Assembly (NCBI GenBank): GCA_016178595.1
Contig: JACOSY010000016.1
Coordinates: 1-38,150 of the forward strand
Length of the DNA stretch: 38,150 bases
DNA from: Ignavibacteria bacterium
Lineage (GTDB): Bacteria > Bacteroidota > Ignavibacteria > UBA10030 > SZUA-254
Direction: 5' to 3'
Every line of letters begins with the position of its first letter. Within the stretch, counting starts at the first letter, position 1. Shown piece after piece: positions 11,578 to 37,655 of the stretch. The translations under genes and the position numbers were made by a program. The notes under the pieces are model-generated. The model saw nothing but the letters and a program-made list of their open reading frames with translations, had not been told where the DNA came from and did no database searches.

Positions 11578-12597
11578 ATGAACGGTAACGATCCTTCGAC
11601 ATCTCCGCGGCTGGTGCTGCTGAATTTCTATTCGACCATCATGCGCCTCCTGAGCGGGGTGATGGTGGGCCTGATTCTCCTGTTTCTCCTCCCCGTAATC
11701 ACTCCCTATCTGGAAAACGCACACGAATTTCGGTACATTCGCTCCGCACTCACGGTGCAAGCCGCACTTGAGCAGGGCGTCCGAAGTAGTTTCCCGACGA
11801 AAATTGCCGGGAAGGACATGAGTCGGTGGCTCGCAATCCTGGCATTCTTCATCCTGAGCAGCAGCTTTAGCAAGTCCGGTGAGAAATTTTATGGAAAGGC
11901 ACAGTACCTGCGCTACAAGCTTTCGATGGAGGAATGGAAGGAATACATGCACCTCTCCGACAATGCAATCGTTCTTTCCCCGCTGAACCGGAAACTCGAA
12001 CAGATCAAGAACGCCAAGAGCAGAGACCGCGAGCAGCTTCTCAAGGAATTTGCTGAGACGAAAAAGCGGCTGGATGCGATGGGACGGGACCTCGCCTTCC
12101 TTTCAGTCGATGTGGTTGATTCGACCGGCATGAAGAGCGGCGAAGAACGGGCGGCCATCGAACATGACTTCAAAGAGTATCGAAGACTTGTCGAGCGAGC
12201 ACTCGCTGCGTCCGGCTGCCTGAAGGCAACATGGACACCGGATGGTGTGATGAGCTGCTTTACGACTGTGGATGCCGCTGTGCGCTCGGCGCAAGAAGTG
12301 ATCGATGCATTGGAAGATTTCAATCACCACGTCAAAACAATACGGAGAAACTTTAGCGTTCGGTGCGGCGTGAACTTCGGCTTCGTCTACTTCGATGACT
12401 CCATGCCGCTGGAGGATATCAGCGACCGCGTCATCGATGTCGCTGCACATATTCAGAAGAAGGCGAAGCCTAATTCAATTTGTGTGGCGAAGCAGGCCAT
12501 TGAGCCGCTCAATGGGAGGGAAGGATTCGAGCCTGCCGGTACGATGGTCGATGGGTATGAGTTGTATGAGTGGAGGAAACGGGCAGCGGCGTACTAG
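11578..12597 (+). CDS. Membrane class III nucleotidyl cyclase-like protein, catalytic residues partly replaced
   Basis: A 339-residue protein with two membrane helices (about 22-43 and 83-97), a helical linker, and a C-terminal class III adenylate/guanylate cyclase homology domain from ~172. The first metal aspartates are present (LSVDVVDSTG, Asp178), and PDGVMSCF aligns with the GDAVMAVF segment carrying the second. However, the transition-state region normally reading VNxAARL is IDVAAHI here, so the usual Asn and Arg are Asp and His. The protein may bind nucleotide without full activity, or use different chemistry. The TAG stop is formed by the outer bases of the hairpin element that follows. 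Confidence 0.8.
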   Translation: MNGNDPSTSPRLVLLNFYSTIMRLLSGVMVGLILLFLLPVITPYLENAHEFRYIRSALTVQAALEQGVRSSFPTKIAGKDMSRWLAILAFFILSSSFSKSGEKFYGKAQYLRYKLSMEEWKEYMHLSDNAIVLSPLNRKLEQIKNAKSRDREQLLKEFAETKKRLDAMGRDLAFLSVDVVDSTGMKSGEERAAIEHDFKEYRRLVERALAASGCLKATWTPDGVMSCFTTVDAAVRSAQEVIDALEDFNHHVKTIRRNFSVRCGVNFGFVYFDDSMPLEDISDRVIDVAAHIQKKAKPNSICVAKQAIEPLNGREGFEPAGTMVDGYELYEWRKRAAAY

Positions 12598-12790
12598 CAG
12601 GTTGTTGAAAAAGTCGATTGCCACGAGCTTTAGCTCGTGGCAAAGATTCATAAGACAAGATTGGGTTTCAACCCATTTAAAAAATCCTCAGATTCATAGG
12701 GCTGAAGCCCAATTATTTTTTTCTTGCTTGCTTGCCACGACCTAAAGGTCGTGGCAACATGGGCAGAAACAGTTTTTCAACAGCCTGCTA
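12595..12790. mobile_element. Four-hairpin TIR element, copy 1
   Basis: A 196-bp element bounded by 18-bp inverted repeats, TAGCAGGTTGTTGAAAAA and TTTTTCAACAGCCTGCTA (one G-T-compatible mismatch). Inside are four hairpins: 12620-12641 (stem GCCACGAGCT), 12662-12675 (TGGGTT), 12699-12710 (GGGCT) and 12734-12755 (GCCACGACCT). The same ends and the same four hairpins in the same order recur at 37448-37655, while the spacers between hairpins differ. No open reading frame. The arrangement resembles REP/BIME elements mobilised by Y1 (RAYT) transposases, but none is in the window. Confidence 0.85.
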
Positions 12791-14245
12791 AGCGCGTTTC
12801 CAGGTGGTCGTATCTTTTTTGTCTTCGAGTACGATCCCGAGTTTCTGTAGTCCATCCCGAATCTGATCCGAGAGTGTCCACAACTTCTGCTTCCGAATTT
12901 CGTTTCGAAGATCGATAATCAGCTCGACAAGCCCAGGCTCAAGAGAGCCATCGTCACCGAACCGCACATCTGTTTGTGTCGGAAATATTCCGAGGATCGT
13001 TCCGCCGAGTTCCATAAAAAATTCATCGATTTCTTTCATCTGGTTCGGTAAGAGCCGTGCTTCCGCCAACTCACTATTGACTTCGCGTGCAACTTCGAAA
13101 AGAATGGCCATTGCCTGCGGCGTGTTGAAGTCATCGTTCATTGCTTCGAGGAATTGCGATTTGAAACCCGCAATGTCGATCGTCATGCCGCCAGCAGGCA
13201 ACTCTTCATCATTTCTTCGCTTGAGTTCTGCCCGGACATTCCTCACTGTATTGAACAGCTTTTCGTAACCTTTTGAGGCCCCCTCGAGCGCTTCATCGGT
13301 AAAATCGAGCGTGCTGTGATAATGGCTTTGGAGGATAAAGAACCGAACGACGAGTGGATCATGTTTCTTAAACAGGTCTTTCAGCAGGGTGAAATTCCCC
13401 AGCGACTTGCTCATCTTCTGGCCATTCACCGTCACAAGATTGTTGTGAATCCAGTGGCGGACGAAGGGCTTCCCTGTGGCGCACTCGCTCTGTGCAATCT
13501 CGCATTCATGGTGCGGAAACTGGTTGTCCATGCCGCCGCCGTGGATGTCGAACGTTTCGCCGAGATACTTCATCGACATGGCTGAGCATTCGATATGCCA
13601 GCCCGGGAATCCTACGCCCCACGGACTGGGCCAGCGCATGATGTGTTCCGGCTCGGCGAACTTCCAGAGCGCGAAGTCGTTCGGGTGTCGTTTCTCGGTT
13701 TTCACTCCGACGCGCGTTCCAGCTTCGGCGTCTTCGGTACTGCGCCCTGAAAGCTTCCCGTACTCCTTATCTTTCGAGACGTCGAAATAAACCGAACCGT
13801 TCACTTCGTATGCAAATCCTTTCTCCATAAGATGCTTGATGATCTCGATCTGCTCGATGATGTGGCCTGTTGCGCGCGGCGAAATATCGGGACGAACAAC
13901 GCCGAGTGCGTCCATATCCTCGAAGTAACTGCGCGTGTAGAACTCCGCGATCTCCATCGGGTGCTTGTGTTCGAGACGACTCTGCTTGAGCAATCGATCC
14001 TCGCCTTCGTTCGTATCGCCGAGAAGATGACCTACGTCGGTGATGTTCTGCACGTATTCCACCGTGTACTTGGAGTATCGCAGGTATCGCACGATGACAT
14101 CGAAGGAAACGTAACTCTTGCCGTGCCCGATGTGCGAGTGGCCGTAAACGGTCGGCCCGCAAACGTACATGCCGACGTGACCTTCGTGCAGCGGCTTGAA
14201 GTCTTCTTTTTTGCGGGTGAGGGTGTTGTAGATCTTTAGTGCCAT
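12788..14245 (-). CDS. cysS: Cysteinyl-tRNA synthetase
   Basis: A class I aminoacyl-tRNA synthetase charging tRNA-Cys, 485 residues, full length for the family. Zinc ligand Cys29 sits in YVCGPTVYGHSHIGH with the HIGH motif at 38-41. The further zinc-site region is GWHIECSAMS and FPHHECEIAQSE, and the KMSKS loop (QKMSKSLGNF) is intact. The anticodon-binding helical domain follows (DDFNTPQAMAILFEVAREVN). The stop codon TAG lies in the right terminal repeat of the hairpin element at 12595-12790. It is 40 nt downstream of the oligopeptidase gene on the same strand. Confidence 0.97.
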   Translation of the reverse strand: MALKIYNTLTRKKEDFKPLHEGHVGMYVCGPTVYGHSHIGHGKSYVSFDVIVRYLRYSKYTVEYVQNITDVGHLLGDTNEGEDRLLKQSRLEHKHPMEIAEFYTRSYFEDMDALGVVRPDISPRATGHIIEQIEIIKHLMEKGFAYEVNGSVYFDVSKDKEYGKLSGRSTEDAEAGTRVGVKTEKRHPNDFALWKFAEPEHIMRWPSPWGVGFPGWHIECSAMSMKYLGETFDIHGGGMDNQFPHHECEIAQSECATGKPFVRHWIHNNLVTVNGQKMSKSLGNFTLLKDLFKKHDPLVVRFFILQSHYHSTLDFTDEALEGASKGYEKLFNTVRNVRAELKRRNDEELPAGGMTIDIAGFKSQFLEAMNDDFNTPQAMAILFEVAREVNSELAEARLLPNQMKEIDEFFMELGGTILGIFPTQTDVRFGDDGSLEPGLVELIIDLRNEIRKQKLWTLSDQIRDGLQKLGIVLEDKKDTTTWKRA

Positions 14246-37447: not shown

Positions 37448-37655
37448 TAGCAGGTTGTTGAAAAAAGGGAATCCACAGCCACGAGCTTCAGCTCGTGGAG
37501 AACAATCCTATAAAAATCGTGATGGGTTTCAACCCATTTTATCAAAGTGACCCGTTTTGCAGGGGCTAAAGCCCCTCGATTTTTTTAGATACCAATAACC
37601 ACGACCTGAAGGTCGTGGCAAATCGCACCGCAGAGAGTTTTTCAACAGCCTGCTA
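37448..37655. mobile_element. Four-hairpin TIR element, copy 2
   Basis: 208 bp with the same 18-bp ends as copy 1, and hairpins at 37479-37498 (CCACGAGCT), 37522-37537 (ATGGGTT), 37561-37576 (AGGGGCT) and 37599-37618 (CCACGACCT). Compared with copy 1 the stem of hairpin 3 is longer on both sides in a matched way, and the loop dinucleotides differ. Spacers show little similarity. It sits between the Nudix and deiodinase-like genes, beside a GCTCTTC heptad array. Confidence 0.85.

Follow-up and report, generated by a model that had tools for sequence, protein, structure and literature searches.

Nested miniature elements in an Ignavibacteria genome that combine IS5-type ends with a four-hairpin core related to subclass 1.2 Y1 transposase loci

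Two hairpin-rich repeats in the window, by which we mean the whole stretch of 38,150 nucleotides that was analysed, are very probably nested non-autonomous mobile elements made of two transposition modules. The outer module is a MITE shell with IS5-type ends that sits at a YTAR site, flanked by TA on each side. The inner module is a core of four hairpins derived from a subclass 1.2 Y1 (HUH) element whose tnpA gene is gone. MITEs and Y1 hairpins are known kinds of element; their combination is new. The anatomy and copy number of the element, autonomous homologues of both modules, the polarity of the hairpin tips, an insertion polymorphism at copy 1 and shell-core junctions conserved within subfamilies were observed directly. 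From sequence, we infer that an IS5-type transposase or TnpA may mobilise the element.

The first-pass annotation had described two copies with 18-bp terminal inverted repeats (TIRs) and four hairpins in the same order, and both are as described (Table 1), with a single mismatch in the TIRs. It had also proposed a genome-wide search for the 18-bp ends with four internal hairpins. A search at the DNA level through the 3.1-Mb assembly (61 contigs) from which the window comes gave 20 copies of the four-hairpin element, not just two. Fourteen carry 18-bp TIRs (one with a decayed arm), one has decayed TIRs (C4:59024-59230), and five are core-only, with the four hairpins but no TIRs (C27:19051, C51:66807, C4:55533, C22:48896 and C12:26856). 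Folded as single-stranded DNA, the window copies reach z = -9.8 and -8.8 against shuffles.

Table 1. Features of the two composite elements in the window.
Feature	Position	Strand	Remarks
Composite element copy 1, 196 bp	12595-12790	+	Between convergent ORFs 11578-12597 (+) and 12788-14245 (-)
Left IS5-type TIR, copy 1	12595-12612	+	TA + GCAGGTTGTTGAAAAA; TAG is the stop codon of the left ORF
Right IS5-type TIR, copy 1	12773-12790	-	Minus-strand TAG is the stop codon of the right ORF
Hairpin 1, copy 1	12618-12643	+	TTGCCACGAGCT-TT-AGCTCGTGGCAA, TTYA tip; equals downstream outer hairpin of tnpA element, reverse strand
Hairpin 2, copy 1	12662-12675	+	TGGGTTTCAACCCA, TTYA tip; equals downstream inner hairpin of tnpA element
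Hairpin 3, copy 1	12699-12710	+	GGGCTGAAGCCC, TRAA tip; equals upstream inner hairpin of tnpA element
Hairpin 4, copy 1	12732-12757	+	TTGCCACGACCTAAAGGTCGTGGCAA, TRAA tip; equals upstream outer hairpin of tnpA element
Composite element copy 2, 208 bp	37448-37655	+	Between two minus-strand ORFs
Left IS5-type TIR, copy 2	37448-37465	+	
Right IS5-type TIR, copy 2	37638-37655	-	
Hairpin 1, copy 2	37479-37498	+	
Hairpin 2, copy 2	37522-37537	+	
Hairpin 3, copy 2	37561-37576	+	With the T run after it, fits the intrinsic-terminator pattern
Hairpin 4, copy 2	37599-37618	+	

The impression that the hairpins are conserved while the spacers between them have drifted is strongly borne out over the whole family. 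Across the 20 aligned cores, identity is 98.3% in stem columns, 77% in loops and 52% (51.8%) in spacers. The two window copies have identical stems (100%) and aligned spacers that agree at 45%; in the five core-only copies the values are 95.7% and 39.4%. Finer claims drawn from the two copies did not carry over to the larger set. The change in hairpin 3, read as paired, adds one outer pair, and 14 of the 20 copies do not form it (alignment columns 89-102). Stems are nearly invariant within the genome, and covariation is weak and is not used here as evidence. The G-T (T/C) mismatch shared by the TIRs of the window copies is no family trait, as in other copies either arm may have C or T at this position. 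The simplest explanation of such sharp stem conservation is that a transposase recognises the folded hairpins.

Alternatively, the element could be retained for regulation, as bidirectional terminators or mRNA 3'-end structures, in which case selection of that kind, rather than transposase recognition, would keep the stems. Stem-loops followed by T runs are matched in both window copies, TIR-borne stop codons occur in four copies, and the five core-only copies keep their stems though their spacers look unrelated. Copies are mostly intergenic, two of them between convergent genes. However, terminator matches are few (two per copy vs 0.5-0.9 in shuffles), a terminator has no need of the strict strand polarity of the tips, and the same hairpins flank tnpA. 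We thus regard retention for regulation as unlikely. For the related proposal that the structure functions as RNA we found no evidence, and an Rfam search of the window gave no match.

Sister genomes contain an intact DDE insertion sequence of the IS5 family whose ends are the outer TIRs, TAGCAGGYTGTTGAAAAA. The TIRs are matched exactly in 26 of 198 relatives. In one of the sister genomes (G174), two TIRs lie 1382 bp apart with a 376-aa transposase between them that passes the NCBIfam IS5 model NF033581 (266 bits, cut-off 140). Homologous transposases with the same or similar ends are present in G009, which belongs to the window's own family, and in G080, G079 and G064. We assign the shell to the IS5 family only, without a group; the IS1182 profile also scores the G174 transposase, at 222 bits, below its cut-off of 270. 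The window's own assembly of 61 contigs yielded no such IS5-type transposase at E <= 1e-30. Assemblies of this kind often lose IS copies.

The insertion site is YTAR: among the 13 copies with readable ends, Y precedes the left TA in 12 and R follows the right TA in 12. TA stands on both sides of the element and is the only duplication seen. Three relatives (G002, G007 and G012) have the copy-1 locus without the insert, and there the conserved coding parts end 9-19 bases apart; a fourth (G004) has a different TIR shell near the locus. The convergent genes that flank copy 1 encode a cyclase-like protein and a CysS-like protein, both named by eye. Because the target is YTAR and the element starts with G, an insertion that hits a stop codon recreates TAG. 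The TIR supplies both neighbouring stop codons at copy 1 and one each at copies on C18, C40 and C33.

Pairing of shells and cores is many-to-many. Shells with the same TIRs hold other palindromic interiors, unrelated to the four hairpins, in G033, G036, G065, G071, G091, G093 and G004, and at least six unrelated palindromic interiors lie within IS5-type TIR shells in sister genomes (L108, L112, L114, L117, L120, L163-L199). The window's own genome has one such case, at C36:16300 (L053:2001-2220), where the same TIR shell encloses two long hairpins of another kind, CCTCTCTAAAATTTAGAGAGG and CCCCTTCCCTAAGGTTTAGGGAAGGGG. Conversely, four-hairpin cores are found within a second shell, ACTGATGTTACGCA, which recurs in G024, G047, G071 and G085 (L289, L291, L293, L295-L298, L301, L302), and single cases of cores in still other shells occur in G034 and G065. 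These statements use named shells only; in a test of inverted repeats in the flanks, the control was inflated by shells common to several genomes. Within composite subfamilies, spacers are common across the shell-core junction, which argues that composites multiplied as units. The composite copy at C34:17141-17347 (L044:2142-2348) is mosaic-like, its half with hairpins 1-2 having the spacers of one subfamily and its half with hairpins 3-4 those of another.

The core matches the hairpins around a Y1 transposase gene in the same genome. This tnpA, at C34:19032-19463, has GCCACGACCTTCAGGTCGTGGC and GGGTTTTAACCC upstream and GGGTTAAAACCC and GAGCTGAAGCTC downstream, so that the hairpins around it stand in the order 4-3-2-1. 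Read on the reverse strand, the window element has hairpins 4, 3, 2 and 1, and between 3 and 2 the gene is missing. In G009 the hairpin-tnpA arrangement is the same, with near-identical stems. The C34 tnpA is not flanked by the 18-bp TIRs, and no tnpB was seen beside it. The suggestion that the element is a Y1 transposase substrate therefore fits the hairpins, which flank this gene, and does not fit the TIRs, which are IS5-family DDE ends. In the same way, the search for a Y1 transposase with the same ends produced one flanked by the same hairpins and not by the TIRs.

The C34 protein passes the IS200/IS605 model NF033573 (72 bits, cut-off 55). At 143 aa, with the motifs YIKNQEEHH, WQ and DHVH, it fits TnpA-Y1 subclass 1.2. 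Solved structures nearest to it by sequence are TnpA-type transposases, including the ISHp608 transposase and the 2xm3 group, which we take to be ISDra2 TnpA. Membership in the RAYT (TnpA-REP) group, as first suggested, was rejected: the RAYT model NF047646 (REP_Tyr_transpos) gives 23 bits vs a cut-off of 80, the motif is Y---Q and not Y---NP, and the hairpin foot is AT[TA]G or TAA and not GT[AG]G. The genome has 11 Y1 transposase genes, and most of the others each have their own, different hairpins (L058-L065). On C42 (L057:1405-2754), a 449-aa open frame spans an upstream REP-like repeat array into a Y1 transposase; the added part is probably a non-coding extension upstream of the real start.

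TIRs and hairpins occur together in 15 copies, as they would if both formed the ends of a single Y1/RAYT element and the repeats were one transposon family. Yet some cores lack TIRs, and some TIR shells enclose other interiors; in relatives the TIRs lie on either side of a DDE transposase, and the Y1 gene is flanked by the hairpins and not by the TIRs. The features tested largely refute a single transposon, which we consider highly improbable, and we return to the two-module reading.

TnpA-Y1 subclass 1.2 has been described from Cyanobacteria and Bacteroidetes as having no REP and 'not sharing IS properties' (Quentin et al. 2018, PMC6006769, Table 1). We gathered 57 tnpA relatives, some of them from this order and the rest from records of named Bacteroidota and others; Y---Q--HH is present in 55 of them as parsed. 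Plasmid records held only two distant tnpA relatives. At 53 of the 56 tnpA loci with enough flank, a perfect stem of at least 7 bp lies on one side or more, and at 38 on both. Stems of at least 8 bp on both sides mark 38/56 loci vs 0/533 control windows. The stem search does not select for the tip, and the tips are strongly polar: upstream, 42 are TTYA vs 1 TRAA; downstream, 43 are TRAA vs 3 TTYA (Fisher p 1e-20). Inner hairpins have the same tip polarity as outer ones, and exceptions with a TTAA tip exist. The 5' foot on the TTYA strand, mostly AT[TA]G or TAA, is alike in upstream and downstream units. Tip polarity together with the same foot on opposite strands indicates that a single strand-specific unit stands at both ends in inverted orientation, an arrangement known from REP/iREP pairs (PMC8266576).

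It thus appears that the published absence of IS or REP hairpins needs correction, and not the membership of these proteins in subclass 1.2. Judged by their sequence and placement, the hairpins are a probable DNA substrate of subclass 1.2 TnpA. A literature search, chiefly of freely accessible papers, found no description of hairpins for this subclass and none of Y1 cores nested in IS5 MITEs.

Cores are widespread among relatives. A covariance model of the core, which is biased toward this genome, has matches in at least 52 of 98 relatives. Matches occur in at least 32 of 35 genomes with a close tnpA vs at least 20 of 63 others, a comparison confounded by relatedness. In a rough test (p = 0.86), limited by one tnpA per genome, poor hairpin picking and cores picked by likeness to this genome, tnpA hairpins were no closer to the cores of their own genome than to those of others.

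This negative within-genome match would be expected if the hairpins were never a Y1 substrate and were general REP-like repeats that accumulated by chance around tnpA genes. Other palindromes inside the same shells, and palindromes nested in one another, point the same way. Against chance accumulation stand the tnpA loci with stems on both sides compared with none of the control windows, the tie between tip polarity and the side of the gene, and a fixed order of outer and inner hairpins that recurs in many genomes. We find chance accumulation quite unlikely, and favour hairpins that belong to the Y1 system.

In several genomes, other palindromes of 18-59 bases lie inside the apex of the cores' outer hairpins. 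In a count of hairpin apices, there are about a dozen such cases (L266, L267 and L276 in G046; L292 and L293 in G024; L106 in G082; L134 in G014; L155 in G088; L324 and L325 in G010; and L206). An example is CTTCCGAAGGAATGCCTTCGGCA, a palindrome between the arms of hairpin 1.

If the two modules work as their homologues suggest, an IS5-type transposase would move the shell plus its cargo by double-strand cut and paste, and TnpA would process the hairpins as single-stranded DNA and spread cores alone. The composite could have arisen when a core landed in a shell, or when a shell formed around a core, and would then have multiplied as one unit. Nesting may reflect one foldback landing in another, which the palindromes inside hairpin apices support. 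A broader view, which we offer tentatively and with some doubt, sees TnpA-Y1 subclass 1.2 as an active, REPtron-like system. On this view its inverted AT[TA]G/TTYA hairpins would be dispersed through Bacteroidota in the form of four-hairpin miniature elements, and these palindromes might land preferentially where other foldbacks, DDE-type MITEs among them, expose single-stranded loops. The nested elements that result could be moved by two unrelated transposases. A transposase class described as orphan gains a defined candidate DNA substrate, with a strand rule (the TTYA tip and inverted ends), and two transposition systems are stacked within one 200-bp element. That palindromes repeatedly lie within other palindromes may be a sign that single-stranded loops are targeted.

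The C34 gene and its relatives resemble the published TnpA-Y1 subclass 1.2 in length (about 148 aa), in Y---Q--HH, WQ and DH[IV]H, in low copy number and in occurrence in Bacteroidetes. Where that account gives 'no' for REP or hairpins (PMC6006769), hairpins are present here at 53/56 genes, together with dispersed four-hairpin derivatives. Like the REPIN/BIME repeats of TnpA-REP (RAYT), the hairpins have a 5' foot tetranucleotide and a tip, occur as inverted pairs, and flank each transposase gene with its own repeats; a TTTA loop is known from REP-Mb of Marinomonas (PMC8266576). REPIN/BIME units differ in having a GT[AG]G foot, two hairpins and a Y---NP transposase, whereas here the foot is AT[TA]G or TAA, there are four hairpins, and the transposase is IS200-like with Y---Q. 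With IS200/IS605 elements (IS608, ISDra2) and their PATE-type MITEs, the system described here has in common a Y1 HUH transposase, akin in sequence to the TnpA of ISDra2 and IS608, as well as subterminal hairpins and gene-less derivatives. IS608, however, has two same-strand hairpins, whereas here each end has two hairpins and both ends consist of one unit, placed in opposite orientations.

Correia elements, RUP and other TA-target MITEs are, like the present element, about 100-200 bp long, hairpin-rich, intergenic and flanked by a TA target duplication. Their TIRs and transposase family differ from those here, and we know of no nested Y1 core in MITEs of this type. The shell itself is closest to IS5-family MITEs, with which it shares short IS5-family TIRs, TA on both sides at YTAR and the lack of a transposase gene; elements of the IS427 group mostly have 2-bp direct repeats (PMC3281130 Table 2). 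Unlike such MITEs, the element described here has inside it a full core of four hairpins that belongs to an unrelated transposition system, and related shells carry several unrelated palindromic cores.
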